DNA of 64,000 nt, taken from assembly GCA_024644235.1 (NCBI GenBank), contig JAHELJ010000004.1:1-64000 (forward strand), given 5' to 3'. Below are positions 5,756-63,964 of the stretch, piece by piece. The position numbers and the translations under genes are program-made. The notes under the pieces were generated by a model. It ran no database searches and had not been told where the DNA came from. It saw only the letters and a list, made by a program, of their open reading frames with translations. The number at the start of each line of letters is the position of its first letter. Position 1 is the stretch's first letter. The DNA is from Lewinellaceae bacterium. Its GTDB lineage: Bacteria > Bacteroidota > Bacteroidia > Chitinophagales > Saprospiraceae.

Positions 5756-5776
5756 GAGTGACTGATAGAAGCAGAC

Positions 5777-5791
5777 ATAAGGTACATAAAA
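5777..5791 (-). promoter_or_regulatory. Conserved cyclase-family promoter-like element, copy 1
   Basis: On the minus strand it reads TTTTATGTACCTTAT, 21 bp before the start codon at 5755. Closely similar 15-mers lie at the same distance before the other four cyclase genes although the surrounding leaders differ. In the copy at 15851 it overlaps TAGTTTTG, which fits the Bacteroidota -7 consensus TAnnTTTG. The element may therefore mark the promoter/start region or an operator. Confidence 0.5.
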
Positions 5792-5799
5792 CACAGCTT

Positions 5800-8533: not shown

Positions 8534-8557
8534 ATGCTTGGGTGAGGAGTTCTCTGC

Positions 8558-13338: not shown

Positions 13339-13363
13339 GAATGATCAACGGGAGCTTGGATGT

Positions 13364-13590: not shown

Positions 13591-15825
13591 CTATTTCGGT
13601 TCGGTCAGCTCCATAAATTCTGGATACTGCATCAATTCTTTTGCCAGTACATCGTAGCGGTAATTGTACCAGTCGTAATCAAAACCATTCTCATTGGCTT
13701 GCCGCAGATGGACAATGGCTTTTTCGATATTTCCCCGGTGACCTTCAAACATCCCTCTAGCATAATCCAAGGCACCCGGGTAGTGCTCCCCATCTTCAAT
13801 AAGATGATCAAGCCATTGCCGTGCTTCCTTTTCCTTTCCCAATTTAAGTAGACAGATGGCTGGAGCTTCAGTAAACAGTACTTTTCCTGCCGGGCTGTTA
13901 TTGTAGAAATACATGGCGGCGTCATAAGCAGTCTGATAGTCTTTACGGAGGTAGGCGAGGGCCATATCGTTTGCGGGAGACCACATGTTCCGTTCATGTT
14001 TGTCCAGCCATTCTTCCCAGATATCCAGGTAGCGGTCAAGCAGTTCTTGCTTTCCCGCCTTATTCAGTTCGATGACAATGGGAAAAAGTAAGAAAGAGGG
14101 TGGCACTGGTCCAACGTACTCCAGTTTGCAAGAGCGATAATATTGCAACATACTGTCTACAGCCTGCATATCCCCTTCCAGAGTCAGAGCCCGCAGATGA
14201 ATAAGAGCAATGTGTCCGCTGACGATAGGATATTGTACTTGTGAGATCACCTTCGAAACGGTGTCATACTGACCGTCGATACATAATGCGGCTAGATAAT
14301 AAGACAGGTAGCCGTGCTGATCAGCCCGGCTTTCAAATTTTGGATTCTCGCGTTTTACGATTTCCGGGAACAAACGAAGGTTAAGCGAAGACCGGTTGGC
14401 CGAGTTGTTGTAATACATAGCATAGTAGGCCTGTCGAGACTGGTGATATTTATCATAAATCTGCCAAGCCACATCGGCTCCTGCCTCAAAATCGCCGAGC
14501 GCCCGGGCTCGACCGCTTTTCACGGTCAATCTTTCGTATTCATTTAAGTCTGATTCCCGCTTCTCCAACCAAACCAAAGCCGTGTCGACAATGTCACGAT
14601 CACCAGAGTTTACACCTTGCCAGAGCAGGTTGATTCCTGGTTGAATAAATTCGGGGTCGAGCTCCATGGCTCTCAGATAATGCCCTTTACGTTCCTGGTG
14701 TGCATCCCCTGGCAGCATCTGCGCCTTGATCATCTCATCGTAAGCGTCGAAACGAGGTGGCTTTTTCTCATAGTAGCCGTCTCCTACCACCCAGTAACCC
14801 AGAATTTGTTGTTGGATAGATTCTATCAGGGCCATTGGATCGTTTTTACCTCCGACAAAAGGCTCCGGTGAGTAAATGGCTTCTTTGGTATTGGCGTCGA
14901 TGATCTCTGCCATTACGGTGATTTCGCTTTCACCCTGGGGATAGTAGCGACCTTTAATCAGTACTTCAGCTCCCTGCGGCAGATAAGCCGGATCATTCTT
15001 TAGACCTGCCAGGATCACTTTAGGATCTTCTTTGATTACCCGGGTCTCTCCAGTTTCCAGAAGACCCTGGCTGATCCAGTCCATGGCCATGAGCCCAAAA
15101 GCATCCATACTTTCCTGCATGGTTTGGTTTTCGAAGGGCATCACCGCTACCGGTCGCTTACGGGTCTCCAGTGACAACGGTGAACCCGAACCTTTACCCA
15201 TGAGCCAGGCCGCAGCCGCAATTACCAGTCCTCCGACGAGCAGCGCTGGCACCAACCACCTGGATGACGCTTTGGGCTGTGGGGACTTTAGCTTGCCCTC
15301 CATCTCTTCGCGTCTGGGCACTACAAATCCTGGGTTAGCCAAGGCATAGACTTCGACCGGTTCGTCTACATTCTTGAAGTCAAAGTCTCCGAGGGAAACC
15401 AACAGGAAATCTCCTTTATTCTTGATTTGGTCACGCACTGTGCGAGACATGAGGATCGCACCAGGTATGCCTATTGATTCAATCCGGGAGGCAATATTGA
15501 CGCCATCGCCATAAACGTTGTTTTCTTTGAAAAGCACCTCTCCCATATGAATGCCGATTCTTACCGGAACAACAGGTTCAGCGCTGAAAGCGTGCTGGAG
15601 GGCGACAGCACAATTGACTGCCTTCGTTGAACTTTCAAAGGAAAGCAAACAACCATCACCAAAATATTGGACAATACTACCCTGGTGGGCAGCAGTCTCT
15701 TTCTCAAGTACTTCTTTGAAGCGATTGAGGTGCTGAATGGCCAACTTTTCATCCTTCTGCATGAGGGCAGTGTAGCCTGCAATGTCGGCGAAAAGGATAG
15801 TAGCTAGTTTGCGTGTTTCGGACAT
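13591..15825 (-). CDS. Class III nucleotide cyclase with TM and TPR-like sensor region (paralogue 5)
   Basis: The start is placed at MSETRKLATI (15825), matching the paralogues; an upstream in-frame ATG at 15879 would overlap the shared promoter-like element and is unlikely. The 744-residue protein has the cyclase domain with Asp14, Asp57, Asn110 and Arg114 and the Gln53/Asn103 pair. A membrane helix follows at about 205-225 (LVPALLVGGLVIAAAAWLMG), then RPVAVMPFENQTMQESMDAFGLMAMDWIS and a TPR-like region ending in MELTEPK. It is the upstream-most member of the cluster. Each cyclase gene has its own leader and repeat-filled gap, so the cluster is probably not one operon. Confidence 0.87.
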   Translation of the reverse strand: MSETRKLATILFADIAGYTALMQKDEKLAIQHLNRFKEVLEKETAAHQGSIVQYFGDGCLLSFESSTKAVNCAVALQHAFSAEPVVPVRIGIHMGEVLFKENNVYGDGVNIASRIESIGIPGAILMSRTVRDQIKNKGDFLLVSLGDFDFKNVDEPVEVYALANPGFVVPRREEMEGKLKSPQPKASSRWLVPALLVGGLVIAAAAWLMGKGSGSPLSLETRKRPVAVMPFENQTMQESMDAFGLMAMDWISQGLLETGETRVIKEDPKVILAGLKNDPAYLPQGAEVLIKGRYYPQGESEITVMAEIIDANTKEAIYSPEPFVGGKNDPMALIESIQQQILGYWVVGDGYYEKKPPRFDAYDEMIKAQMLPGDAHQERKGHYLRAMELDPEFIQPGINLLWQGVNSGDRDIVDTALVWLEKRESDLNEYERLTVKSGRARALGDFEAGADVAWQIYDKYHQSRQAYYAMYYNNSANRSSLNLRLFPEIVKRENPKFESRADQHGYLSYYLAALCIDGQYDTVSKVISQVQYPIVSGHIALIHLRALTLEGDMQAVDSMLQYYRSCKLEYVGPVPPSFLLFPIVIELNKAGKQELLDRYLDIWEEWLDKHERNMWSPANDMALAYLRKDYQTAYDAAMYFYNNSPAGKVLFTEAPAICLLKLGKEKEARQWLDHLIEDGEHYPGALDYARGMFEGHRGNIEKAIVHLRQANENGFDYDWYNYRYDVLAKELMQYPEFMELTEPK

Positions 15826-15850
15826 GAGTGCATCGACTTCTACTTTGAAA

Positions 15851-15865
15851 ATAAGGTACGCAAAA
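15851..15865 (-). promoter_or_regulatory. Conserved cyclase-family promoter-like element, copy 5
   Basis: On the minus strand it reads GTTTTGCGTACCTTAT-like, 25 bp before the start codon at 15825. Here the upstream part gives TAGTTTTG, an exact fit to the Bacteroidota -7 consensus TAnnTTTG. That places the shared GTACCTTAT part at about the transcription start. Confidence 0.55.
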
Positions 15866-15972
15866 CTAGGCGAACCCAAGAAGAGTTGTTTTATACCAGG
15901 ATTGAGGATTCAGAAGGCTGAAGCGAAGGGGTAAAGGGTAAATATGAGCTAACACAGAACCGACAAATCAAG

Positions 15973-46707: not shown

Positions 46708-49700
46708 ATGCTAGATCCCGGCAGGCAGGCACTCATACAAAAGAATAAGGCATTAAAGCAGGCATTGGCTATCGAGGCCTCTCTGAATCGCATCAGGAAT
46801 CTCACGATGGAGATGGAGAGCAGTGAAGACCTCTCAGACGTCATCCGGCAGGTGTTCCAGGAAGCGATTGAACTTGGATTTGGTGCCAGGGCTTGCGATC
46901 TGGTTATTCTAGACCGCAACACGGGCGGGTCGCAGTTCTGGATATCGGGTAATGCGGACAAAGGGGAGGTTATTCATTTCATTGTGCCAAAGCTCAGCAT
47001 CAAGCATTACCTGGATGGTCTTGAAGCCTGGAAAAAACGCAGGGCCGTTAGATATAAGCACTTGAAAGGAAGATCCTGCCAAGCCTACATGCGACAGCTG
47101 ACAGACAACATGAAGCACAGCAACATGCCTAAAAAGGTGGTGCGCATGTTGCGAAAGTTGACCAGCATCCATCACACAGAGGCTTATATGCGATACGGCT
47201 TTTTCCGGGTGGCCAGTGATGGTCCACTGGAGAAGGATCAGATCAAAATATTGCGACGTTTTGCCAAAGTTTTTGAGCAGTCATATACCAGATACTTGAA
47301 TCTCCACGAAGCGGAGGCTCAAGCCAGAGAGGCTCAAATCGAAGTAGCACTGGAAAGGGTCAGAGGCAGAACTATGATTATGCGTAGGAGTAGTGAATTG
47401 GCAGAAGTTGCTGCCGGTTTGTTTGAAGAAGTCCAAGACTTATATGAGCTCGGATCAAATCAATTCCGTTGCTGGATAGTCATTGCAGATGAACAAGTAG
47501 GCGTAAATCGGGTATGGTCGACAGATGCTGCTGGTGATCCACTTAAGAAGTATAGTTTGATGCCTATCAAAGAGCATCCGGTGCAGCAGAGAATCTTTGG
47601 TGCTTGGAAAGAAGGGCAGGCTTCTATAGTTACTGAGTTCACTGCGGCACAGGCCGTATCGTACACAAATTATTTGGCCCAATTTGAAGGATATCGAGAT
47701 GATGCTGAATTAAGACAGAGGATGCAGGAGTATGCATCTCCGGAATTCCTGACAAGGGGAAAAAATGGTGATCCCATTGTGGCATGGATGAATGAAGCCT
47801 TTTTCTCTCAGGGCCGAATTGGTTTTCTAGTGACAGATCAACACCTAGATCTGGACTTATACGTGCTAGAGCGCTTCGCCACAGTGTTTGAGCAGTCGTA
47901 CACCCGTTTCCTTGATCTTCAAAAAGCGGAAGCGCAGGCCAGGGAGGCGCAGATTGAAGCTGCCCTGGAAAGAGTTCGTGCTCGCAGCATGGCCATGCAC
48001 AGCAGTGAGGAATTGGTGGAAGTGGCCACTGTCCTATATAATGAATTGAGATCATTGGATGTCCGCGAATTTTCAGATGCTTCGATTGTCATCTTCGATG
48101 AGAGCAATAATCAGCAAATCGTATGGGGAGCTCGAACAGAATCCGACTTTCTGGAAAAAGCGGTAATGCCTCTGCTGGGGGATGAGGTTCTCCAGGAACT
48201 TTATGACAAATGGCACCTGCAGGACCCATTTTTCACGGTAGAAGTGGGAGGAAAAGCACTACAGAAACATTTGAATTTTGTTGTCCCAAAGGCCGGCAGA
48301 ACAGAAATAGAAGATCGAGCATTGAAGAATATGCCGGATCCCACCTTTTTTCATTGCGCTGCATTTAGCTGGGGATATCTGGAACTGGTGGCAGAGAAGG
48401 AGCTTAGTGAGGATTCGTCCTTGATATTAACACGCTTTGCCAGGGTATTCGAGCAGTGCTATACCCGTTTCCTAGACCTACAAAAAGCGGAGAGACAGGC
48501 CAGGGAGGCGCAGATTGAAGCTGCCCTGGAAAGGATCCGAACCTCGGCCATGATGATGACCTCGCCCGATGACCTGATCAATGTAGTAAGGGCCATGCGA
48601 GAGCAAATGGAATTATTGAAGGAGGTTGGACTCGAAACTACTGTAGTGCAACTATGGAATGAAGGGTCAGAAATTAGTGAAAACTGGTATTCGTTTAAGA
48701 TGCCCGGTGACTCAAGTGCTTCCATTGTTGAGGGGATCGCCTTGATTCCAAAATATTCCAGTGCTTTTGCCCGGGTGCTGACTTCTCAATATGAGTTAGG
48801 AACACCTGAATTCACCATTACTTCATATGGAGAAATGTTGACAGAATGGTATGGAGTCCTGGAGGAATTTGCACCCAAAGTTCTGACGTATGATGCGAAA
48901 GAAGAATTGATCATACCCGATCAGTTGCATTATCACTATTCACGTTTCACAGGTGGAGCGCTTGTGATGATTTCAGAAGAGTTGCCTAGTGATAACTCCA
49001 AGATATTGTTGAAACGGGCTGCGTACGTATTTGAACTTGCTTATAAACGATTTCTCGATCTCCAGAGGGCAGAGGAACAAGCCCGTGAAGCTCAGATTGA
49101 AGCCGCCTTGGAAAGGGTACGAGCACGCACCATGGCCATGCATCATAGTGATGAATTGGGGGACGCGGCTATTTTGCTATATCAACAATTGATAGCCTTG
49201 GGAATCGATCAATTTTTTATATGTGGGTTTGTTATTGTTGATGAGGAGCACAAAATTCAAAATGGGTGGTTAACCCAACCTGATGGCAGCTTTGTAGAAA
49301 AAATGAACCTGCCATTGCCAGGCGATTCCGTACTTAAAGAAAGATATCAGGCTTGGAAAAATAATGTTCCGGTCTTTCATCAACTAGTAGGGGGCGCGAG
49401 GTTAAAACGACATCTAACTTATGTTGCGGACCGGCAGCTTTCTAAGAATAACGTTGAAACCATACTGCCAATAATGCCTGATCCCGTGGTGTTCTATTGC
49501 GGAAACTTTTCTGAAGGCTATTTGCACATCTTGGCCCCTGCAGTTCTGAAACAAGAGTCTGAGGAAGTCCTTGCACGATTCACGGCGGTGTTTGAAATGA
49601 CTTATCGGCGCTTCCTTGATTTACGAAAAGCTGAAGCTCAAACCCGGGAGGCGCAAATCGAAGCTGCATTGGAACGGGTGCGAGCAGCTTCTATGGCTAT

Positions 49701-52700
49701 GCATCATACCTCCGAATTGCAGAAGGTAATCAATACAGTAGGTGAGCAATTTCGCACGTTGCGTATTGACAACACCGGAGGTGTATTCATCTGCATTAAC
49801 GAAGAAAATGCCGAAGAAATTTGTGTGTGGGGTTCTGGCGATACCGCTGAATATGCCTCTAGGGTTTGTGTCCCAAAACTAGACCGGCCAATATATACCG
49901 AGATCATCAAGAAGGTGAAGCAAGGTCCGGGTTTTGTGACGGAAATTTTCTCTAGAGAAGAGAAGATCGAGTTCTTCAAACACATGTTTAAATATCCGCC
50001 CTACAATCAGACTTCAAAAGCCCATCAAAAAGAATGGCTAGCGAGGAAAGGTGGATATACCCGCTCTTGTGCCATCTCCAGGCACACCACCTTATTTATG
50101 ATCAACCATCATGGAAGGGTGTTTTCGGAGGATGAGAATGATATATTGAAAAGATTTGGGAGGGTATTTGAGCAAAGTTATGTCCGGTTCCTTGATTTGC
50201 AGAAAGCCGAAGCCCAGGCAAGAGAAGCGCAGATCGAAGCCTCACTCGAACGGGTAAGGGCTGCGTCATTGGCCATGCATCATACCGAGGATATCGCAAA
50301 GGTGGTGACCGTACTATTCGATCAGCTCAAAGGATTAAATCTCGATTTCATCCAAACCTGGATCACCATTTTCGAACTTGACCATGAAAAGATAAACGTC
50401 TGGTTCAGCCAATACCCAGGTGTCAATGACGAACCGGTATGTATAGTCTTTCCGTCAGTGGTATTTGCTGAAGCGATCGAGGCATGGAAAGTCGGAGAGC
50501 CTTTTTGGTATCGCACATTTGCAAACTCGGAGGAAGTCGATGCCTTCCTGACCGCTTGCGGACAATTTGCTCAAACGGACTACTTCGACAAGCTAAATGC
50601 GGTGCTCGAAGTTGAGTGTCTTGAATTTATAGAGACACGTCACGACTATGGCAACATTTCTAAATCCGGAACGACAAAACCCACGGAAGACGAAAAGATA
50701 CTCCTTCAGCGATTTGGGCGTGTCTTTGCGCAGGCGTATACCCGTTTCCTCGACCTTCAAAAGGCTGAAGCTCAGGCGAGGGAAGCCCAAGTGGAAGCAG
50801 CCCTCGAAAGGGTTCGGGCTAAAGCCATGGCTATGCATTCTTCCGAAGATCTGACCGAGACGATAAAAGTATTTTACAACCAGATCGGTGCGTTAATAAA
50901 TATTCCCCGAAGATGTGGAGTGGCCATAATTGATGAGAGCGAGGGAGTCTCAGAAGTTTGGACGATGAATACAACGGAAGAGGGAGAATCCATCGATGTA
51001 GTGGGATCGATTAAGATGGAGGGGCATCCAGTTTTAGAAAATGTCGTTACTTATTGGAAGAATCAGGAAGATTATTTTCCGATACTGCGAGGCAAAGAAA
51101 TCACCGACTATTACAAAGTCCTTCACCCTCAGATTGAATTTCCTGACTATCCCCATGATGAGATTCAGTACGGGCATTACTTTATGTTTCCAGAAGGGGA
51201 TGTCTATGCTTGGACAGAAAATGAATTGAAGGAGGAAGATTTAGCAATATATCGCCGATTCACCTCTGTTCTCAGTCTTACCTACCGTCGATACTTTGAT
51301 TTACAGAGGGCGGAAGCTCAAGCCAGGGAGGCCCAAATCGAAGCTGCTCTGGAACGGGTTCGGGCAGTTTCCCTGGCCATGCATCAGAGTGAAGAGCTTC
51401 AGAAAGTGATCACTACGGTATTTGATCAGTTGAAGTCATTAGGGATTTCAATGGATGTTTCCTTTATCGAGATTTTTGACGAGACCAGGAATACTAATAT
51501 GTGGGTGGCTAATCCACGACATAAGTACGCCCAGCTGGTGCGCATCCCCTATTTCAAGAATCCTTTGCTGGATAGGATGCTGGAAGCCCGGCTTAAGGGG
51601 GAGACCTTTTTCGTAGACAGATATGGCAAGGGTGTGAAGAACCGCTTTTACCGCAAAGTCTTCAAGGACTCGGATCTGCGAGTGATACCACCCCACCTGC
51701 AGGGAGAGATACTCAAACGAAAAGGTTATGCCAGGTCGGTAGCACTTAGTAAATATGCCGCACTGGCGATTTTTAACCTCGATGACCGGCCGTACAATGA
51801 AGAAGAGAACCAGATTCTGCGGCGATTTTCGCGAGTGTTTGAACAAGCGTATACCCGCTTCCTCGATTTACAGAAGGCGGAAGAGCAGGCAAGAGAAGCT
51901 CAGATTGAGGCTGCATTGGAGAGGGTGAGGGCAGCGTCGATGGCGATGCACAGAAGTGATGAAATGCAGCAGGTGGTGAATGATGTCTATGAACAGCTTC
52001 AAGCATTAGGGATAGAAATGGACGCGGTTGGCATGAGCGGGGTGATAGAGTCGCAAAAGGATTACGACGTATGGGTGGGTGGTTCTGATTTTTCGGAGCC
52101 ATTGAAGATCCCGTTCAATGATGCCACTCAGGTGCAGCGGGATTACAATGAAATTATTGAGAAAAGACAAGAGCTTTTTGCAAGAACATATTCGGGTAGA
52201 ATTAAGAAGGAATATATCGACCATTTAATCGACCATGGGGATTTTCCGGAAGAGCTCAAAAGGCGGATGTTGGAATCGGAAGCATTTTCAACTTCCATAT
52301 CATTTTATCAGAACTCAGGTATTCAAATCGTCCGGTATAACGACCAACCCTACACTGATCAGGAAAATGAAATTCTATGTCGATTTGCCAGGGTTTTTGA
52401 GCAAGCCTATATCCGTTTTCTTGATTTGCAAAAAGCAGAAGCCCAGGCCAAGGAAGCCCAGGTCGAAGCCGCTCTTGAACGGCTACGTTCCCGTAGCATG
52501 GCCATGCATCAGAGCGATGAATTGAAGGAGGTGGTGGTGCAACTTTTCCAGGGCCTGGATCAGTTGCACATCCACACTGCAGTTTGTAATCTGGCTCTTT
52601 TCGATCCGGTAACAAAGGAAGCAGAACTTTGGTCGGCACATGAGACTGCAAAAGGACTTATTTCCTACTACGTAAAAGTGCCATGGATCAATCATCCCAT

Positions 52701-55700
52701 CTGGAAAGGTATCTATGACACCTTTGAAAAGGGTCAACGATTTGCTGTGCATGAGGTTTCTACCAGCCGGAGGAAAGGTTTCAGCAAGATATTTTTCGAA
52801 AAGGTTGACTACCGCCACGCACCCGAAGAAGTACGGAAAGCAAATCAGGAATTGCCTAAAGTGACAGAGGCTGTTGTTCTCTCTGTATCCGCTATGAAGC
52901 ATGGTCTACTCGTTGCGTCCAGGAATACTCCATTAGCTCAGGAAGAAGGCGATATTCTAGCTCGTTTCGCCAAGGTTTTTGAGCAGGCCTACACCCGTTT
53001 TCTCGATTTGCAGAAGGCAGAGGCTCAAGCACGTGAAGCAGAAATTGAAGCTTCCCTGGAGAGGGTGCGATCAAGGACTATGGCAATGCACAAAAGTCAT
53101 GAGCTTATGGAAATCGTGCATGTAGTCCATGATGAGTTGATTGATCTTGGAATAGATCTGGAAGTGATGCAAATCTATGTACACCAGCCGGGGCAAAAAT
53201 ATTTTAAGGCATGGATGGCTGTGCCCGGAACACCTTACCCTGCGGAAATCATCTTTCCCTATTTTGACAATCCCTGGTTGAAGGCAGTGCGAAGGGCTCA
53301 GAAGCGTCAGGAAACTCTGGTTAGGGTATTTCAGAAGCAAGCAAAAAATGCTTTTTACCGTGCGTATTTCAAAGTAGCATCTCTGGTACCACCGTCTGAT
53401 CGACAAAAACAAATTCTCGATGCACCGGCAGTGAGTTCAGTATTTACTTTCTCCCCTAATACGGGCCTGGCTGTCCTGCGATTTCGAGAACAAGAGTTTG
53501 ATGTTGAGTCGATTTCCGTAGTAGAGCGATTTGCTGCAGTTTTTGAGCAGTCCTATACCCGTTTTCTCGATCTGCAGAAGGCAGAAGCTCAAGCAAGGGA
53601 AGCCCAAATTGAAGCGGCGCTGGAACGGGTCCGGGCAAGATCGATGGCGATGCATGCAAGTAAAGATCTGCATGAGGTCGTCCTCCTGTTGTACGAGCAG
53701 CTAGAGAGTTTGGGATTGGTCATGAACTCGGTAATGCTTCATGAGTTTGTCGATGACACCAAAGATCTTCTGGTATGGGGTGCGGCCAACGGACAATTGT
53801 ATCCGGAAAAGGTCTGGGTTCCTTATCTCAATCATCGATGGTTCAATAGATTTCATAAAGCTCGTACTACAGGAGGACTATTTATTACAGACAGTTTCTC
53901 CAAAGCGGAAAAGGATAAATGGTTTGATAATTACTTTAAAAGATCCACGCATCAATCCGTGCCGGAGTCACGCAAAGAATTTATCTATTCCTGTCCGGGG
54001 ATGAACCGTTCTTCTGCCATTCACAAGAATACAGCGCTGACGGTTATGCTTTACGATAAGGATGCTTATAGTGAGGACGACAATGAGATTATTAGACGCT
54101 TTGGAAAGGTTTTTGAGCAGTCCTATACCCGTTTTCTCGATCTGCAGAAGGCAGAAGAACAAGGAAGGGAGGCAGAGATACAACTTGCTCTGGAACGAGT
54201 TCGGGCAAGGACAATGGCCATGCATCGAGGCGATGAATTGGCAGAAACAGCGCTGGTATTGTTCGATCAGCTGATTCAACTGGGTTTTACACTCCGAGGG
54301 TGTGGTTTTCTGATTATGGATGAGTCATCAAAGACGATGGAAGATTGGAGTGCAAATCTTGATGAACACGGACAGGGTAAAATTATCACGGGCACTCTTA
54401 CATTCGATATACATCCTATTCTGGAAGGCGTTGTAGATACATGGCGGAAAGGAGAGTCTTATTATATCGGTGAAGTCCATGGTGCTGAATTGCAGGAATA
54501 TTATAAGGCAGTTACTTTAATCGAGTCTGTTTCTCAGGGAATCAAGGACAGTGTGCTGGCGTCAGCCATTTCTGAATGGACGAATAGCTTCTACTTCGAA
54601 TATGGGATGATGTATGCCCTTACTCCCCATCCACTAACAGAGGAAGAGATAGGTGTAATGCTCCGTTTCGCAGGGGTATTTAAAGATACCTATCGACGCT
54701 TTTTAGATTTAAAGAAGGCAGAAGCCCAGGCAAGAGAAGCACAAATCGAAGCAGCATTGGAGCGGGTTCGGGCGAGATCGATGGCCATGCACAAGAGTGA
54801 GGAGCTCAATCAAGTGATCGCAACGGTCTTCGAGCAATTGCAGATCCTTGGGTTTGAAGCCATTCAATGCGAGATTATATTATTTGATCCACAAACCCTG
54901 GACTGCGAAATCTGGCCCTCGAACGAAGCACAACAGGTATTGCCAAGGAGCTACTTCATTCCGCATACCCATCACGCTTTTTATCAGTTTTTGGTCAATG
55001 CCTGGCAGACACAGTCAGACTATTGTCCTTACGAACTGAAGGGCAGGGTCAAGAGAGCCTATGAAAAGTGGTTGTTTAACCAAACGGATTGGCAGCACAT
55101 TCCGCGGGAAGTGAAACAATCGATGCTGGCAATAAAAAGGGTCATGCTGTATGGTGCTACCATGCGTCATGGAATATTGGAAGTAGCAGGACAAAAGACA
55201 CTATCGGAGGAGTATTTCAAGATAATTAAGCGCTTTGCCAAGGTCTTCGAGCAGGTATATACCCGCTTTCTGGACCTGCAGAAAGCAGAAGCACAGGCCA
55301 GGGAATCAGAGATACAGCTCGCCCTTGAAAGAATCAGAGCAAGAAGCCTGGCCATGCACCAGAGCGAAGAGCTGACCGATGTCATAAGTGAGCTTTTCAA
55401 GCAGTTCGATATCCTTGCCATCAACCCTGCCTTTGCCCATCTCACCCTCTTCGATGGGGGTAGTGAATCGTTTACCCTGAGACTGACCGATACTTCCGGA
55501 GAAAGGGTTATGGCTGAGCAAAGAATCAGTCTCAAGCACATGCCCGAATGGATTGAAGCTTACGAGGGGTGGAAAGATGGTAAACCAGGGCAGATAGGGG
55601 TCATTCGATATCGGCCGGAAGATTTACCATTTGTCTTCGGTTTGTTGAAAGATCTGGTCAAGGCCATGCCGGCCAGATCCAGGATAAAAGCCGAGAAATA

Positions 55701-58640
55701 CCCTGAAGGACTATGGACAGTTCAGGGACATTGTCAATTTGGATACCTCGGAATGAATACTGCCCGTCCACCGACCGATGAAGACAAAGATATCGTCCAA
55801 CGATTTGCTAAGGAATTCGCCAGAGTCTATCAGCGGTTTATCGATCTTCAGCGCGTTGAAGCTCAAGCCAGAGAAGCCCAAATACAGGCAGCTCTTGAGC
55901 GCGTTCGAGCTGCTGCCATGGCCATGCACCATTCAGCTGATCTTATCAAGGTGGCTAAAGTGCTCAGGGAACAAATGGGACAACTGGGACAGCCCGAGCT
56001 GGAATCATCCATTATCCATCTATATCCTGAGGGTCGAGAGACGTTTGAAGCCTGGTGGGCTTTCCGCCCTCCGGATGACATCGATGGTCTGGTTAAGGAA
56101 GGGATTGCCATCGTCCCATCGAAGAAAACTGCCTGGGCCCGAGCAGTCATGAAATATTATCAGAGTGATCAATCCGAGTACACGATTTTTTCAAAGGGAA
56201 AGATGCTGAAGGAATGGTATCGCCAGCTTGAAGAAATTGCACCATCGACGATCGATTATGATAATAAGGGCAAAATCATTGTGCCCAAACAATTGTGTTA
56301 CCATTTTTCAAAATTTTCGGGAGGTGCTTTGCTGCTGATCACTTCCGAAGAGCCTGATCAAGAATCGTGTGAGTTGCAACGAAGGGCTGCCGCTGTCTTT
56401 GAGCTGGCCTACACCCGCTATCTCGATCTGAGGAAAGCGGAAGCGCAAGCTAGGGAAGCACGGATTGAGGCCGCTCTGGAGCGTGTACGGTCCAAAACCA
56501 TGGCGATGCACCACAGTGAACAATTACCTGATACAGCATCGGTTGTATTCGAGCAATTGCTCTTACTCGGTAATGTACCTGATCGGATCTGCATAACTAT
56601 TTTCAAAGAAGAGGAAGGTCTTGCTCAATTTTATGTCACAGACCAGGCGGGCAGTGAAGTCAGTCATGTTTTTGATGTTTCGATAGAGGAGCCGACAACA
56701 ATTAAAAAAATCTATGACGCTTGGCAGAGGAAAGAGAAATCTGTGAGGGTGAAGTTGACCGGCCAGGAACTGAAAGACTGGATCAGATATGTTGTGGAGG
56801 ATGTAGGCATTTTCATTGATGAATCAAATATTACGGGGGTCCGGTTTCATCATGCAGCATTTTTCTCTCAGGGCTTTTTACTCCTTACAACACATGAGCC
56901 GATAGATGATAATCTTTCGCAGTTGTTGACCAGGTTTGCCAAGGTTTTTGATCAGACATACACAAGATTCTTAGATCTTAAGAAAGCAGAGGAACAGGCA
57001 CGAGAAGCGCGTATAGAGGCAGCACTGGAACGTGTGCGTGCACAAACGATGGCAATGCACAACAGTCAGGATGTCAGTGACACTACCATGTCTATGTTTG
57101 ATGAACTGGAGAGCATTGGCATTCGTACGGTACGATGCGGTGTACTGATCATAAAAGAAAATAACCTCATCGAGGTCTGGGCGGCAGCATCTCGAAAGGG
57201 GCGTACCTCGCTAATTGGCCAAGGACTGTTGGACACATCCATTCATCCCTTGCTCCGAGGCATATATACGAACTGGGAACAAAAATCAGGGTTTTACGAG
57301 TACGATCTCAAAGGGAAAGACCTGAGAAGTTATTACCAGGCTCTGAAGAAAGCAGACTATAATATTGATCTGCCTCACAAATTACCACCACGGCTTAGTT
57401 TCCGAGTATCATATTTTCCGGAGGGAGCACTCTTTTCGTTCACGCGAGAACCCTTTTCTGATGAAGGATCCCAGATTTTCTCCCGATTCGCGGGAGTTTT
57501 TGCCTTAACATATCGTCGATTTCTCGATCTGCAGCGAGCGGAAGCCCAAGCCCGCGAGGCTCAAATAGAAGCATCGCTGGAGCGAGTCCGAGCGCGCACC
57601 ATGGCGATGCATGACAGTGAAGACATTGGAGACACCGTAGTCGCTTTATTTAGTGAATTGCTGGGTCTGGGCATTAGCGACAAGGTTCGCTGTGGCATAG
57701 GAATTTTTGATAATACGGACGTAATGGAACTATGGACAGCTGCTTACCGGAGGGGAACGGAGGTGCAACTTAGTATTGGCCATCTGGACATGACCCTACA
57801 TCCAGTGCTGCGTGGTGCCAAGCAAGCCTGGAAGGATCAGAAAGAGTCTTTTTTGTATGAATTAATGGGAGATGACATGATTCGCTACTTCGAGGTGATT
57901 AATAGCGCACCAGACTATCCAGTCACTGTCGATCTGGAAACCTTGACTCCGCTAGTGGTACACCAGAGCTTCATGTTTCCGAATGGTCTCTTGTATGCGT
58001 TCTCAGAAGAGCATTTACCCAATGATGTCAGCAACACCTTGAAACGATTTGCAGCGGTTTTCGGTCAGACCTACCAGCGCTATATCGACTTGCAAAAGGC
58101 AGAGGCTCAAGCCCGGGAGGCTACGAAGAATGCAGCGATTGACCGGGTGCGAGCCGAGATCGCTTCGATGCGTACCACCGAAGACCTGCAGCGCATCACA
58201 CCACTGATCTGGAGGGAATTGACCACGCTGGAGGTGCCATTCATTCGCTGTGGAGTATTCATTATCGACGACCAAACTGAGACTACCAGGACTTATTTAT
58301 CTACCCCGGGGGGGAAATCACTGGCAGTGATGGATCTGGGATTTGATAATCCGCTGGTGCGGCCTGCCGTTCAACATTGGAGGCAAAATAAAGTATACAA
58401 AGAGGAGTGGGACAAGAACCAGTTCGTGCGATGGACGCAATCCTTGATCGAGCAGGGGATTGTGAAGAGTTCCAAAAAATATCAGGGTGGAGAAGATGCT
58501 CCTGAGCATCTGGTGCTGCATTTTGTCCCTTTTGCCCAGGGTATGATGTACGTAGGAAGTCCTGATTTTCTGGATAAGACTCAGATTGAATTGGTTGAGG
58601 CCCTGGCAGATGCCTTTGCGGTCGCCTACGCCCGCTATGA
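46708..58640 (+). repeat. Tandem coding repeat: 21 sensor modules, period 546-615 bp
   Basis: The linker codon run for L/F-D-L-Q-K-A-E starts at 47296, 47911, 48472, 49054, 49615, 50191, 50749, 51295, 51862, 52420, 53002, 53566, 54136, 54703, 55270, 55840, 56422, 56971, 57523 and 58084. Linkers are highly conserved in protein and often in DNA (about 90-100 bp). The module bodies are diverged to about 20-40 percent by eye, with clear subclasses: 4 and 17; 3 and 5 (partly 18); 8, 14, 19 and 20; and 6, 9-13 and 15. The linkers could support recombination, so the module number may vary between strains or be wrong in assemblies made from short reads. Confidence 0.9.
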
Positions 58641-59478
58641 AGACTTCAATCAGCTTGAGGCAGCAAAGGAGAGGGTGGAAGATACCCTCGATGAATTGAA
58701 AGCGGCTCAAAACCAGTTGATTCATTCCGAGAAGATGGCATCATTGGGTGAGCTCACTGCAGGCATAGCTCACGAGATTCAAAACCCATTGAATTTTGTC
58801 AACAACTTTTCTGATGTGAATAGCGAATTGATTGAGGAAATGTTAGAGGAAATAAAGGCCGGCAATTTTGAGGAAGCGATCGAGATTGCTCATGATATTG
58901 AGGGGAACGAACAAAAAATCAAACATCATGGCAAGCGGGCGGAAGCGATTGTCAGAAGTATGCTGCAACATTCGAGAAGTAGCTCTACTCACAAGGAACT
59001 CACGGATATTAATGACCTGGCAGACGAATATCTACGACTCGCTTATCACGGCATGCGGGCCAAAGACAAATCTTTTAATGCATCCATGAAAACCGATTTT
59101 GATAAGACATTGGATAAAATCGAGGTCGTACCCCAAGAGATTGGCAGGGTCTTATTGAATTTAATCACCAACGCTTTTCATGCCGTCAATGAAAAGAAAA
59201 TGGATGGAGAAAACGGCTACGAACCTAATGTCACAGTTACAACGAAGAAATCTTCCGACAAGGTCTTGATTCGAGTCAAAGACAATGGCAGTGGTATTCC
59301 CCGTCGTATCCTCGACAAAATCTTCCAACCATTCTTCACCACCAAGCCCACCGGGCAGGGCACCGGGCTGGGACTTTCCCTCAGCTATGATATCGTCAAA
59401 GTGCACAAAGGTGATTTGAAAGTGGAGACCAAGGAGGGTGAGGGGACGGAGTTTATTGTTGAGCTGCCAATGGTGTGA
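46708..59478 (+). CDS. Giant soluble sensor histidine kinase with 21 tandem GAF-like modules
   Basis: One open frame of 4256 codons (about 490 kDa) has no signal peptide or membrane helix. It begins with half a linker ([22 protein letters not shown]). It then has 21 alpha/beta modules of roughly 185-205 residues, each opening S/DEL-x(3)-xxxxxxQLxxLGI and closing [13 protein letters not shown]. Between modules sits the helix [30 protein letters not shown]-like, at residues 197, 402, 589, 783, 970, 1162, 1348, 1530, 1719, 1905, 2099, 2287, 2477, 2666, 2855, 3045, 3239, 3422, 3606 and 3793. The last module leads by a coiled coil into one kinase core: His4022 ([15 protein letters not shown]), N-box [15 protein letters not shown]1 [10 protein letters not shown]-box [10 protein letters not shown] and G2 GTGLGLSLS. 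Known relatives in Bacteroidota have few modules. No receiver domain is attached and no response regulator is adjacent. The modules are probably GAF-like ligand or protein binding domains; the fold is inferred. Confidence 0.93.
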
Positions 59479-59560
59479 AAGGACATGCTAATGGGTGGGA
59501 TGGTGGTATCAAATTTGACGGAGAATGTGAGTGCCGATTGTACTCCAGAAGTCTAAGGCA

Positions 59561-59938
59561 GTGATTAGTTTGCGGAATTAAAATCCGAGGGTAACAAATG
59601 AATAAGCCTACGGCGTTGATCAATAGAGGGTATGAGAGTTGCAATTTATCTTTTAACCTTAGAGTCTATAAAGCCCATTTTATAATAGTTCGTACCGATG
59701 GCACTTTGGCAAGATAGAATTCAAACAGCGGATTAAAATCCGCTGGTAAGAATTAGGCAAGCCTACGGCTTTGATCAATTAAAGGTGATGGGTATGAAGC
59801 CCAATTAATTTAGAGGGAACAAGAGGCAGAGCCTCGAGAAAATGTAAAAACCACGGATTTCAATCCGTGGTTTTTGGAGAACTAGATAAGAATAAAGAAC
59901 CATCGGTTCGCTCTATAATAACAGTAACGAGAGAGGCA
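59561..59938. repeat. Left flank of the Y1 transposase: REP-like multi-hairpin unit
   Basis: The unit holds several small palindromes: CAGCGGATTaaAATCCGCTG (59726-59745), CAAGCCtacGGCTTTG (about 59759-59774), GAGGCagaGCCTC (about 59823-59836) and CCACGGATTtcAATCCGTGG (59851-59870, flanked by A5/T5). It leads directly into the transposase ATG. Its first 145 bp recur at 60445 and the rest recurs in the two units downstream. Confidence 0.8.
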
Positions 59939-60400
59939 ATGGCAAACACATATCACAAAATCTACTTGCAGACGGTTTTTGCCGTGAAGTATCGCCGGGC
60001 TCTCCTTGACAGAAAATGGAGAAAAAAGGTTTTTGCTGTGATAGGTAATCTAATTAATCAATCGAATTGCAAAACAATGATCGTGAATGGGGTTGAGGAC
60101 CATGTACATTGTTTGTTTTCATTAAAGCCTGTTGTTCAGATATCAGATGTAATGAAGAATGTCAAGGCAAAGTCTTCTAAGTTCATTAATGAACAGGGTC
60201 TAACTAAAAATCGATTTGAGTGGCAAAAGGGTTACGGAGTTTTTTCCTACGGCGAATCTCAAGTGGATAAGGTGTACCGCTATATTCAAAATCAAGAAGA
60301 ACATCATAAGAAGAGCACCTTTCACGACGAATACATAAATCTACTTAAGAACTTCAAAATTGAATATGACGAACAATATCTATTTGAGGAGATGATTTGA
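59939..60400 (+). CDS. Y1-type transposase (IS200-like / REP-associated tyrosine transposase, RAYT)
   Basis: The start is placed at MANTYHKIYL (59939); an upstream frame to 59867 covers a REP palindrome and is unlikely. The 153-residue protein has the HUH motif His55-Val56-His57 (GVEDHVHCLFSL) and a catalytic Tyr, most likely Tyr115 (KVYRYIQNQEEHH). Length fits the IS200 TnpA family. No tnpB is present. The many palindromic repeats on both sides, and copies of its own 5' flank downstream, suggest a domesticated RAYT that handles REP elements rather than a complete insertion sequence. Confidence 0.88.
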   Translation: MANTYHKIYLQTVFAVKYRRALLDRKWRKKVFAVIGNLINQSNCKTMIVNGVEDHVHCLFSLKPVVQISDVMKNVKAKSSKFINEQGLTKNRFEWQKGYGVFSYGESQVDKVYRYIQNQEEHHKKSTFHDEYINLLKNFKIEYDEQYLFEEMI

Positions 60401-60444
60401 GTTCGTCTGAAATGGTGTGTGCCGACAACTTCAATTAATAGACT

Positions 60445-60860
60445 GTGATTGAGCTGCGGATTAAATCTGCAGAGAAGAAATGGATAAACCTACGGCGTTG
60501 ATCAATAGAAGGTATGAGAGTTGCAATTTTATCTTTTAACCTTAGAGTGTATAAAGCCCATTTTATAATAGTTCGTACCGATGGTACTTGAGCAAGAAAG
60601 TATGAGATGTAAGCAGCGGATTAAAATCCGCTGGTGAAAAAGGGCAAGCCTACGGCTTTGATGAATGGTAGAGCAGTGATAATTGTAACTATCTTTTTAA
60701 CCTTAGATAGCAAAGCCCAATTAATTTAGAGGGAACAAGAGGCAGAGCCTCGATGAGATATGAGAACCATGGATTTCAATCCATGGTTTCCAAAGGACCT
60801 AGATGAAATGGAGAACCGTAGATTAGTTCTATGATAATTAGAGTAACGAAAAAATCAATG
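60445..60860. repeat. REP-like unit B: copy of the transposase 5' flank including its ATG
   Basis: It repeats 59561-59941 in order: the gtgatt start, a degenerate CTGCGGATTaaATCTGCAG palindrome, the cctacggcgttgatcaatag segment, accgatgg-cacttg, CAGCGGATTaaAATCCGCTG (60614-60633), GAGGCagaGCCTC and CCATGGATTtcAATCCATGG (60767-60786). It ends gagtaacgaaaaaatcaATG, which matches the bases around the transposase start codon (cagtaacgagagaggcaATG). The reading frame stops soon after. Confidence 0.8.
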
Positions 60861-60865
60861 ACAAA

Positions 60866-61135
60866 ATAGTTCGTGCCGATGGCACTTGAGCAAGAAAGCA
60901 TGAGATGTAAGCAGCGGATTAAAATCCGCTGGTGAAAAAGGGGCAAGCCTACGGCTTTGATGAATGTTAGAACAGTGATAATTGTAACTATCTTTTTAAC
61001 CTTAGAGAGCAAAGCCAATTGATTTAGAATGAACAAGAGGCAGAGCCTCGAGATAATATGGAAACCATGGATTTCAATCCATGGTTTCAAAGGCTCTAGT
61101 TGAAATGGAGAACCGTAGGTTCGATCCATGATAAT
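60866..61135. repeat. REP-like unit C: second, shorter copy
   Basis: It repeats the second part of unit B from atagttcg: CAGCGGATTaaAATCCGCTG (60912-60931), GAGGCagaGCCTC and CCATGGATTtcAATCCATGG (61065-61084, with perfect GAAA/TTTC extensions), then ggagaaccgtagg. It ends about 100 bp before the FIST gene. Units B and C are about 90 percent identical. Open frames read across them are repeat translations. Confidence 0.8.
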
Positions 61136-61235
61136 TGACTACACAAAAACCAAATTACAGGTAGGTCTTTTAATCAACTTCGGGAGCAAAAGCCTTACCT
61201 TCAAAAGACTAGTGCTCTGAAAAAACTCAAATCAC

Positions 61236-62375
61236 ATGAAAGCAAAATCTATTAGAGGTCAAACACCTGCAGAACTGGGTCAGGCTTTGGAGGAAAGCAT
61301 GCAAGATGGGTTTAAGCCTACTCTTGCCATTGTGTTCATGTCTGTCAAGCAGGATCGAGGTGAGGTCGTTAAGCTCCTTGATCAACGGGGGATTAGCATA
61401 TACGGTGCGACTTCTAATGGGGAGTTTATCGATGAAGAGCTAGGCAAGGAATCCATTGCTGTTCTTTTATTAAATATCAGTGAGGATTACTTTAAGGTGT
61501 TTATCGATGAGTATATAGAGAAAGCACCAAGGGACGTGGCCAGGGAAATAGCGAAGGCGGCGATTGAGACCTTTGACAATCCTGCCTTTTTGATCGCAGG
61601 GAGTCACATGGCAACTGACGCCGAGCAACTTCTACATGGCTTCGAAGACGTCATTGGTAGTGAAGTGGAAGTATACGGTGGAATGGCAGGAGATGATTTT
61701 ACGTTTACCGAGCAGTTTGTTTTCACGAACGAAAGAGCAAGTAATCAGGGTGTTGTGGCCGTGGCGATAGATTCTGACAAAATAAAAATTGCCGGTAGAG
61801 CGATTTGTGGCTGGAAACCAATGGGCACAGAAAAAACAGTCACCAAGAGTGAAGGGAATCATGTGTACACGATCGATGACGTGCCAGTTCTTGAAATGAC
61901 GAGAAGATATAGTGGGCTGAAAGTCATTTCGAAGGAAAATGAGAATATCCTATTGGAAATTGCGACCACTTTTCCTCTTCAATTGCAGCGTGAAAAGGGA
62001 GCGCCAATCATGAGGCCGGGACTAATGATAGATTGGGAGGATGGTTCTTTCTTTTGTAGTGGAACAGTTCCTCAAGGTTCTAAGGTTCGTTTTTCCCTTC
62101 CACCTGATTTCGATGTCATTGATGAAGTGGTTGATGGCTGCCAAAGACTAAAAGAAGAAGAAATGCCCGAAGCAGATGCCGTTATTTTATTCAGTTGTGC
62201 AGGAAGAATACTGGCTTTTGGCCCGTTGATGGGCAAAGAGATAGAAGGTGTCAAGAACGTCTGGAATGCTCCAATAGCTGGGATGTTTTCGAATGCTGAA
62301 TTAGGTCGTGCTACCGGAGGCAATCTGGAAATGCACAACTTGACAACTTGTTTTGTAGCCATGAAGGAGAAGTGA
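61236..62375 (+). CDS. FIST-domain sensory protein
   Basis: The 379-residue cytoplasmic protein has FIST_N (LAIVFMSVKQDRGEVVKLL, ISIYGATSNGEF, FLIAGSHMATDAEQLLHGFEDVIG, EVYGGMAGDDF) and FIST_C (YTIDDVPVLEMTRRYSG, ...VDGCQRLKEEEMPEADAVILFSCAGR, PIAGMFSNAELGR) domains. FIST proteins are proposed ligand sensors (amino acids and similar) that act with histidine kinases, cyclases or chemotaxis proteins. It ends 11 bp before the kinase gene that follows, so the pair is probably one operon and the kinase its partner. Confidence 0.92.
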   Translation: MKAKSIRGQTPAELGQALEESMQDGFKPTLAIVFMSVKQDRGEVVKLLDQRGISIYGATSNGEFIDEELGKESIAVLLLNISEDYFKVFIDEYIEKAPRDVAREIAKAAIETFDNPAFLIAGSHMATDAEQLLHGFEDVIGSEVEVYGGMAGDDFTFTEQFVFTNERASNQGVVAVAIDSDKIKIAGRAICGWKPMGTEKTVTKSEGNHVYTIDDVPVLEMTRRYSGLKVISKENENILLEIATTFPLQLQREKGAPIMRPGLMIDWEDGSFFCSGTVPQGSKVRFSLPPDFDVIDEVVDGCQRLKEEEMPEADAVILFSCAGRILAFGPLMGKEIEGVKNVWNAPIAGMFSNAELGRATGGNLEMHNLTTCFVAMKEK

Positions 62376-62386
62376 AACGATAAGAG

Positions 62387-63964
62387 ATGGATCAGAAAGT
62401 AAAGCAGATACAAGATCTCATCACACAATCTGCATCGATCGGAGACGAGCCTCGAGATGACATTCTAAGGTTATTGAAGAAGGTCGAAGGCGAACTCGAA
62501 ATACTCAGATTCAAACTGGACCGGACCGAGAAGGTAAAACAGACTGTTACCGTCCTTTTGGATGAAACCATAGCGGAGCTCAATGAAAAACACCGGAAGC
62601 TAGAAATTGAAGCAGCTCTGGATCGGGTTCGGGCTAAAATAGCTTCGATGCGCAGCCCGGCTGATTTGGAGCGGATCACCCCGCTCGTCTGGCAGGAATT
62701 GAGCACTATGAATGTTCCATTTTTTCGCTGTGGGTTGCTAATTATCAATGAAGCTGAGGAAAGCTGGCAGGTTTACCTCAGTACCCCCGACGGGCAGTCA
62801 CTGGCAGCCATGGTTATACCGCACGGTACTTTCGCGTTCATGGATGAGGCTGTGGACCGATGGAGTAACGAAGAGATCATGACCCTGGATTGGGACAAGT
62901 CAGAATTTGAAGCCTGGACAGCATCGCTGGTGGAGAAGGGAATGATCGAAGATCCGCAACAGTATTCGGCAGGTGAGCAAGCTCCTGAACGACTCGTGCT
63001 CCATTTCATTCCATTTTCCAATGGAATGTTATATGTGGGTAGCGCAAGCATCCTGGGAGAAGAGCATTTGACATTAGTAAGAGCGCTGGCCGATACATTT
63101 TCCGTGGCATATGCGCGTTACGAGGATTTTGTCCGTTTGGAAAAAGCAAAAGCTGAAATCGAACGGACATTAAATAACCTGCAAGCTGCACAAGCACAAT
63201 TGATCCAATCGGAGAAGATGGCATCGCTGGGTGAGCTCACAGCGGGAATCGCCCATGAAATTCAGAATCCACTCAATTTTGTGAATAATTTCTCGGAAGT
63301 GAGCATTGAGTTGATCCAGGACATGGAGGAGGAATTAGCGCATGGCAAAACCGCAGAAGTGCTGGAGCTAGGTCATGATCTTAAGCAGAACCTTGAAAAA
63401 ATCGGCCATCATGGTGAACGTGCCTCGGCTATTGTCAAATCAATGTTGCTGCATTCCAGAGCTGATAGCGGCACAAGAGAAAAAATAGATATAAATGCCC
63501 TGGTCGATGAGTACCTGCGCCTCGCATACCATGGTATGCGAGCTAAGGACAAATCCTTCAATGCCACCATGAAAACAAATTTTGATGAGGCATTAGAGCC
63601 GATTGAGGTTGTACCCCAGGATATTGGCAGGGTACTCCTAAACCTGATCACCAATGCCTTTTACGCTGTAAATGAGAAATATTTAGAAGTAGGAAATGAA
63701 TTTGAACCACAGATCATGGTCTCGACCAACAAATCCTCAAGCAATGTAATGATAAGTGTGAGAGACAATGGGAGAGGCATGCCGGTTGTGATCAAGGAAA
63801 AAATCTTCCAACCCTTCTTCACTACCAAACCAACTGGACAAGGAACAGGATTGGGATTAAGTCTGAGCTATGATATTGTAACCAAAGGGCATGGCGGCAC
63901 AATTGAAGTAAGGAGCAAAGAGAATGAGGGCTCTGAGTTTATTGTGACACTGCCAATTGTCTGA
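62387..63964 (+). CDS. Compact sensor histidine kinase with one GAF-like module
   Basis: The 525-residue soluble protein starts with a coiled coil (about 1-80, ending [18 protein letters not shown]). It has one module ([26 protein letters not shown]...[19 protein letters not shown]) and a kinase core with His290 ([15 protein letters not shown]), N-box [15 protein letters not shown]1 [10 protein letters not shown]-box [10 protein letters not shown] and G2 GTGLGLSLS. The module and core are clearly homologous to module 21 and the core of the giant kinase ([31 protein letters not shown] shared). It is coupled to the FIST gene, so FIST probably provides its input. No response regulator is seen before the window ends. 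Confidence 0.93.

Follow-up and report, generated by a model that had tools for sequence, protein, structure and literature searches.

A subclass 1.2-type Y1 transposase gene of Bacteroidota and its oriented hairpins, a putative REP-like transposition system

In the window, the 64,000-nt stretch of a Lewinellaceae genome analyzed here, a gene encoding a Y1 transposase (tnpA) lies within an array of repeated hairpin units. We read the array as a probable REP/REPIN-like system for single-strand transposition, operated by a subclass 1.2 TnpA. The grounds for this reading lie in the anatomy of the array, the conserved pairing and polarity of its hairpins, an asymmetric leader, units that lack the ORF, the site states of one orthologous position, a dispersed derivative and purifying selection on tnpA in Chryseobacterium.

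Anatomy of the array

The gene tnpA (59939-60400, plus strand) encodes a 153-aa Y1 (HUH) transposase, which matches PF01797 (Y1_Tnp) with 99.7 bits. As assessed by a genome search, it is the only Y1_Tnp gene in the window's genome. A Y1 transposase at 59939 accompanied by REP-like hairpins, as called by the initial annotation, is therefore borne out by both the Y1_Tnp match and the hairpins. The neighbors are a 4256-aa kinase ORF (46708-59478) on one side and a FIST-domain gene (61236-62375) on the other. The array had been placed exactly between two related kinases, which holds approximately: the large kinase ORF does adjoin it, but the FIST-domain gene precedes the second kinase (62387-63964). 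The 4256-aa sensor-kinase ORF has many repeated modules with a recurring 22-residue linker and a single HisKA/HATPase end, and the sensor-kinase cluster runs beyond the window with at least four further kinases and a response regulator. Pairs of a FIST-domain gene and a histidine kinase, as found here, terminate runs of 4-6 tandem FIST genes in genomes G024 and G012. Elsewhere in the window, four similar minus-strand ORFs (3716-5797, 6221-8557, 11128-13344 and 13591-15909) start with SE(I/T)RKLATI(L/V)FADIAGYT(A/S)LMQKDE. They resemble nucleotide-cyclase domains with long C-terminal extensions, a local expansion of paralogues.

In its complete form, the unit of the array consists of six hairpins in a fixed order: three in one orientation (A-B-C), a spacer, and three in the opposite orientation (D-E-F). 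The ORF is missing from it. By consensus, hairpin A at the left end is GTRCC-GAT-GGYAC, and hairpin F at the right end, oppositely oriented, is GAACC-RTA-GGTTC. Between them lie B (CAGCGGATTNAAATCCGCTG), C (AAGCC-TAC-GGCTT), D (GAGGC-AGA-GCCTC) and E (AACCATGGATTTCAATCCATGGTT). Hairpins C and F are mutual inversions (CCTACGG/CCGTAGG), A and F form a 27-nt terminal inverted repeat (81%), and both the C/F and the A/F pairs are inverted around tnpA, which is located between F of unit 2 and A of unit 3. The features are as follows.

59530-59683, plus strand: unit 1, restricted to the left half, with a degenerate hairpin A, palindrome B, hairpin C (AAGCC-TAC-GGC) and a truncated spacer, by alignment to 60413-60566
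59684-59938, plus strand: unit 2, complete A-B-C-spacer-D-E-F, directly upstream of tnpA, by alignment
59692-59704, plus strand: hairpin A of unit 2, GTACC-GAT-GGCAC, left-type loop, by sequence and alignment
59726-59745, no strand: palindrome B of unit 2, CAGCGGATT-AA-AATCCGCTG
59759-59771, plus strand: hairpin C of unit 2, AAGCC-TAC-GGCTT, left-type loop
59823-59835, minus strand: hairpin D of unit 2, GAGGC-AGA-GCCTC, right-type loop
59846-59875, no strand: palindrome E of unit 2, AAAAACCACGGATT-TC-AATCCGTGGTTTTT
59897-59909, minus strand: hairpin F of unit 2, GAACC-ATC-GGTTC, right-type loop
59895-59921 with 60563-60589: 27-nt inverted repeat (81%) of unit 2 hairpin F with hairpin A of the next unit
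59939-60400, plus strand: tnpA, 153 aa, subclass 1.2 type, with DHVH at codon 54, WQ at codon 95 and Tyr115 in YIQNQEEHH
60413-60566, plus strand: unit 3, copy of unit 1 (left half), by alignment
60567-60865, plus strand: unit 4, copy of unit 2, complete A-F, by alignment
60575-60587, plus strand: hairpin A of unit 4, GTACC-GAT-GGTAC
60614-60633, no strand: palindrome B of unit 4
60646-60658, plus strand: hairpin C of unit 4
60739-60751, minus strand: hairpin D of unit 4
60765-60788, no strand: palindrome E of unit 4, AACCATGGATTTCAATCCATGGTT
60813-60829, minus strand: hairpin F of unit 4, degenerate
60858-60865, plus strand: end of unit 4, the tnpA start context ATGACAAA, remaining ORF absent
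60865-61136, plus strand: unit 5, complete A-F, 91% identical to unit 4, no ATG
60873-60885, plus strand: hairpin A of unit 5, GTGCC-GAT-GGCAC, with a compensated A-T to G-C change relative to unit 4
60912-60931, no strand: palindrome B of unit 5
60945-60957, plus strand: hairpin C of unit 5
61037-61049, minus strand: hairpin D of unit 5
61063-61086, no strand: palindrome E of unit 5
61110-61122, minus strand: hairpin F of unit 5, GAACC-GTA-GGTTC

Pairing within the hairpins is kept across the window units, with 96.7% of cells paired and four pairs changed on both sides. Their covariation score was matched by none of 500 shuffles, and slid versions were all far worse. The palindromes quoted in the initial annotation are present where it had put them, but the two end hairpins, GTRCC-GAT-GGYAC and GAACC-RTA-GGTTC, had escaped its list.

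The region 59520-59945 aligns end to end with 60405-60866, and 60865-61136 is 91% identical to 60567-60860 (E = 3e-103). The truncated spacer-to-hairpin junction AAAGCCCATTTTATAATAGTTCG is common to both copied blocks (units 1 and 2, units 3 and 4), and 60413-60865 is therefore a block copy of 59530-59941. At the end of unit 4 stands ATGACAAA, which is how tnpA starts, and hairpin A of unit 5 comes directly after it. Unit 4 reads most simply as a unit whose ORF was deleted. These results revise what had been described as an array of ATG-ending copies of the left part of the element. The copies of the tnpA 5′ flank are genuine, with a similarity far above that expected by chance, and the unit ends do match between copies, but the full copy starts at about 60405 and not at 60445. 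The supposed partial copy downstream (60865-61136) is a complete A-F unit. Not every copy carries all of the palindromes, as 59530-59683 and 60413-60566 hold the left half only. An ATG-containing end was found for 60567-60865, in ATGACAAA, but 60865-61136 has no ATG. Finally, the copies are more than a left part: the left hairpin set and the inverted right one are both there, and nothing but the ORF is missing.

The unit is also found 7 kb downstream, at contig positions 68060-68570 (locus L010, 4060-4570), in two pieces and in a gap directly after a sensor-kinase gene. BLAST, and pattern searches with two of the hairpins, returned no further unit copies in the 5.6-Mb assembly beyond the array and this 7-kb site. 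Within this genome, the array is confined to a single kinase cluster. Units found only here and unchanged across strains had been named as counting against the initial reading; half of this is true of the window's genome, where the units are confined to the two sites, but it does not apply to the related systems. Among the relatives searched, all from other genera, the closest FIST-kinase pairs (61-64% identity) are preceded by short gaps that contain no hairpins, a weak comparison as the upstream gene order differs.

The transposase and the hairpins of 110 loci

The initial annotation had labeled the transposase as REP-associated (RAYT), which does not agree with its profile scores. TnpA reaches only 34 bits with the NCBIfam REP_Tyr model (NF047646), for which the cut-off is 80, and 78 bits with the IS200/IS605 model (NF033573), for which it is 55. 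Among solved structures, those of the ISDra2 and IS608 transposases (2xm3 and 2a6m) come closest to it. The motifs of the window TnpA (DHVH54, WQ95, Y115IQNQEEHH) are those of TnpA_Y1 subclass 1.2, for which DH[IV]H, WQ, YIKNQKEHH-like or Y---Q--HH motifs and a length of ∼148 aa have been reported (PMC6006769). A looser motif set (DHxH, WQ, Y...Q..HH) is present in 99 of 110 relatives, and the Tyr, HUH and Q residues are conserved in their alignment. Quentin et al. 2018 (PMC6006769) describe subclass 1.2 as low copy and from Cyanobacteria and Bacteroidetes, give it the entry "REP: no" and report that typical IS200 ends are lacking; the single Y1_Tnp gene in the window's genome agrees with this low copy number. 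In motifs, length and distribution, the window TnpA thus appears to match subclass 1.2.

Hairpins were analyzed in 110 loci, i.e. 30 from related genomes (the window's included) and 80 named loci, all selected by protein similarity only. A hairpin was defined as GC-rich, with a stem of at least 5 bp and a 3-nt loop, a definition that was set after examples had been seen and under which the controls were also run. Hairpin density is 4.2/kb upstream and 5.5/kb downstream of tnpA, against 0.31/kb more than 2 kb away. When only noncoding DNA is considered, it is 7.2/kb within 500 bp of tnpA against 0.83/kb more than 2 kb away, which is an ∼9-fold enrichment. At least one hairpin is present in 97 of the loci; the 13 in which no such hairpin was found include some at contig ends. 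The reported absence of REP or IS200-type secondary structures from subclass 1.2 does not, therefore, extend to most of these loci. This contradicts a negative report, not a mechanistic feature of the subclass.

Loop orientation depends on the side of the gene. Among 83 dereplicated loci, the closest loop upstream is of the RNR type in 34 cases and of the YNY type in 4, whereas for the closest loop downstream the counts are 5 RNR and 36 YNY (p = 1e-12 for upstream versus downstream polarity, and p = 5e-19 within 150 nt). When 243 distinct hairpins are placed in one orientation, the consensus is TA.AAW.ATKTC-[RYSCC]-TWY-[GGSRY]-T, with the core CC-TWY-GG. The 5′ leader was recovered separately from upstream and from downstream hairpins, and no conserved signal was found past one T in the 3′ flank of the 243 hairpins. 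The 5′ foot is TKTC; the GT[AG]G foot is absent, GTA occurring only as the reverse-strand loop. A one-sided leader is informative because a protein reading the hairpin together with its 5′ foot would leave such a trace. In Stenotrophomonas maltophilia, TnpA_REP requires the loop GCT and the reverse complement AGC fails (PMC8266576). In several relatives, hairpins are enriched genome-wide, with up to 45 matches to one pattern, and in several others they are found at the tnpA locus only. Copy numbers are in the tens, not hundreds.

Three loci (L020, L091 and L019) have very regular hairpin arrays around the transposase, with a period of ∼50-57 nt, and genome G069 also has regular arrays at several loci away from it. 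A general rule placing a GGATTNNAATCC palindrome near the hairpin was rejected, as it occurs 13-15 nt 5′ of the hairpin in only a few window-type loci. Elsewhere, palindromes are equally common 5′ and 3′ of the hairpin (24 versus 23 of 239).

Site states, dispersal and units without the ORF

In locus L058, from a metagenome-assembled genome whose tnpA is 69% identical to that of the window, an array in 273-nt units fills the gap between dapF and ispG. We compared this gap in nine further genomes of the L058 genus. It is empty in L199 (ispG 95% identical to that of L058) and L205 (80%), and holds a single REP-inverted REP pair of ∼75 nt in L198 (97%), a unit without tnpA in L200 (94%) and the right half in L204; arrays with tnpA are present in L201, L203 and L207. 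In the ispG tree, each of two clades has one empty genome beside filled ones, and the array edges differ between the two filled clades. A history with two gains at this gap is shorter than one with a single gain and two losses, although both are possible, and the site states of this genus could partly be losses. 

Movement is also suggested by genome G001, from the window's family, in which at least eight contigs (L167-L169 and L171-L175) carry one tnpA-deleted derivative. Each consists of a hairpin array followed by the identical junction GCCAACGATCCC|CAATTGGGAGCAG, and then by tnpA from codon ∼103 and the right-end hairpin. Judging from these sequences, the deletion must have arisen once and its product then spread. 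It joins a hairpin arm to a palindrome within tnpA (CCCAATTGGG). We claim no exact transposition ends for the derivative because its outer boundaries are variable and lie in low-complexity DNA, and it may have moved within a larger repeat.

These findings bear on a passive origin of the array, in which a block of hairpins and tnpA came once and the repeats arose by unequal recombination or replication slippage, with no role for TnpA. For the window alone, recombination is enough to explain the copies. The units there are local, the truncated spacer junction common to units 1+2 and 3+4 is expected of one block duplication, and tandem periodic arrays, e.g. in L020, resemble slippage. We nevertheless consider a passive origin unlikely, if the most serious of the alternatives. 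Loop polarity and the one-sided 5′ leader imply protein recognition, and further evidence against it comes from the empty sites and single hairpin pairs at one orthologous position, the deletion derivative on different contigs in G001 and the genome-wide hairpin enrichment in several genomes.

In Chryseobacterium, a subclass 1.2-type transposase gene, flanked on either side by two hairpins, occupies the gap from fadJ to a thiolase gene. The transposase is present in this gap in 10 of 20 species; in the remaining species there is a different small ORF, a different insert or just a short gap. Among the ten tnpA orthologues, dN/dS is ∼0.10, which indicates that the gene is under purifying selection. 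Together with the fixed residence, this value argues that the system is maintained and not merely decaying. The gap itself (L208-L227) is an apparent insertion hot spot with varying occupants, and the unrelated small ORF found there (MHNFRDLEVWKKS...) looks like the four-helix-bundle/intervening-sequence type.

A particular neighborhood is seen in the window and in loci L057, L061 and L067, which come from different families. In all four, tnpA is inside a tandem sensor-kinase cluster, whose kinases end in a common 17-residue motif that is near none of the other loci among the 110. The A and E hairpins of L061 and the window are near-identical. A single clade of kinase-neighbor loci was considered but is unsupported, the tree being unresolved at this point. 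Co-transfer, shared ancestry or target preference are possible explanations for this setting.

Fixed residence could also point to a domesticated locus, in which TnpA and the hairpins serve the host, e.g. by acting locally in the processing or termination of kinase-operon transcripts, and have ceased to move. One tnpA per genome, purifying selection and the fixed site in Chryseobacterium are in keeping with this, as are the window arrays in gaps of the sensor-kinase cluster and the same neighborhood in three relatives. However, purifying selection alone fits either host benefit or selection for transposition, and the site variation in one genus and the dispersed G001 derivative show movement or loss elsewhere. 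Domestication is hence rather improbable, and we rank it below a passive origin.

Relatives also have units without the ORF. Of 106 loci, 67 carry a nearby repeat of a tnpA flank, compared with 20 of 126 control positions (p = 7e-14). Among the 110 relatives, 5′-flank repeats end between −40 and +40 of the tnpA ATG, and the starts of 3′-flank repeats range from −69 to +40 relative to the stop codon. Because the ends are spread about the ORF edges, some units keep a few codons of either end of tnpA, and C-terminal tnpA remnants are retained in some units of relatives. In L114, there is a second tnpA copy (78%). The initial annotation had proposed repeated abortive copying, i.e. transposition that starts repeatedly at the left end and halts at the ATG. 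The ATGACAAA end of unit 4, and the 5′-flank repeats that end at +3 to +9 of the ATG in several relatives, would suit such a process. It is nonetheless very unlikely. The copies include the inverted right-end hairpins D-E-F and hence are not left fragments. Moreover, in many loci repeats coming from the opposite flank reach 5-70 nt into the end of tnpA, and neither these nor the C-terminal remnants can be produced by copying from the left. With flank repeats ending at the ORF edges, C-terminal remnants and one dispersed deletion derivative, internally deleted complete units and tandem duplication appear to fit better.

Less probable still is an ordinary IS200/IS605 insertion sequence that lies by chance among unrelated intergenic palindromes: despite an IS200/IS605 NCBIfam score above the cut-off, the hairpins are ∼9-fold enriched, gene-oriented and have a common leader across 110 loci, this type of TnpA is single or low copy, unlike IS200, and the hairpins come as inverted pairs in tandem units, where such an element would have a single subterminal hairpin at either end.

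Proposed mechanism and relation to known systems

In the REP/REPIN-like system that we favor, the mobile unit would be framed by oppositely oriented hairpins, with a spacer separating the left module A-B-C from the right module D-E-F, which is inverted. Where tnpA is present, its place would be between F of one unit and A of the following one. The downstream repeats would be complete units after deletion of the ORF, which are non-autonomous and MITE/REPIN-like. Units would multiply adjacently as tandem arrays, via TnpA and/or ordinary recombination, and occasionally at new sites. By analogy with the biochemistry of IS200/IS605 and RAYT systems, TnpA would bind the hairpin as single-stranded DNA in the orientation with the pyrimidine-N-pyrimidine loop, the cleavage site would be chosen through the 5′ leader, and Tyr115 would cut before TnpA rejoins the ends. 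Binding, cleavage and transposition by TnpA are thus predicted activities.

Inverted hairpins around transposase genes, REPINs and BIMEs are known for RAYTs (PMC2817692, PMC6006769). The window system resembles the RAYT/TnpA_REP REPtrons of Escherichia coli, Stenotrophomonas and Pseudomonas (PMC2817692, PMC6006769, PMC8266576) in having a Y1 HUH gene flanked by oppositely oriented hairpins, as seen in the window and in the polarity of the 83 dereplicated loci. They are also alike in inverted hairpin pairs, tandem units, non-autonomous hairpin units and an orientation given by a short loop. However, the window protein is of the Y...Q..HH type and falls short of the REP_Tyr model, whereas RAYTs are of the YI..NP type. 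The 5′ foot is TKTC-like here and GT[AG]G in RAYT REPs, and a unit of the window clade is built of six hairpins, GGATTNNAATCC palindromes among them. Units here are few and local, at two sites on one contig in the window's genome, whereas RAYT REPs are dispersed in the hundreds. For REPINs and BIMEs, in which two opposed hairpins move as a unit, a possible parallel is the single inverted pair in L198 versus the empty site in the L058 genus.

With subclass 1.2 (PMC6006769), the window protein shares motifs, a length of ∼150 aa, a C-terminal extension, low copy number and occurrence in Bacteroidota. The survey reports no REP partner and generally no IS200-type ends, whereas most members here have oriented hairpins on both flanks. 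Compared with IS200/IS605 elements (IS608, ISDra2), the catalytic fold and residues are alike, and recognition of single-stranded hairpins is the presumed chemistry. In place of a compact IS with one hairpin per end, present in several discrete near-identical copies, there is a single low-copy tnpA gene with inverted modules that repeat outside the ORF. No tnpB adjoins tnpA within the window. Genes flanked by non-GTAG hairpins, as here, have also been described as having "atypical secondary structures" in TnpA_Y1 class 3, with a Y-Q motif and a CnGA foot, mainly in Planctomycetes and Acidobacteria, and in subclass 2.6, with YIH[QN]NP (PMC6006769). The window protein matches the motif of neither.

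As far as shown within the open-licence literature, the new elements are a hairpin partner for subclass 1.2, its distinct consensus, the six-hairpin unit of the window clade and the series of site states. On balance, we lean toward a broader proposal, held with less confidence than that for the array itself. Subclass 1.2 may be a third transposase-plus-REP system beside IS200/IS605 and RAYTs, with its own class of REP (TA.AAW.ATKTC, RYSCC, TWY) recognized in one orientation. It would mobilize inverted non-autonomous units while itself being single-copy, and would be widespread in Bacteroidota and neighboring phyla.

In the 2018 census, subclass 1.2 was close to IS200 transposases but without IS ends or REPs, and hence its substrate was unknown then. 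The oriented hairpins are a concrete candidate substrate, testable with short oligonucleotides, and the position of the cut can be predicted from the one-sided leader. At the dapF-ispG site, where empty, pair, unit and full states occur in nature, the origin and loss of REP-like elements can be traced outside the proteobacterial RAYTs. These findings also suggest that more than one branch of Y1 transposases gave rise to REP-type systems, and a transposase group reported to be without a DNA partner appears to have one.
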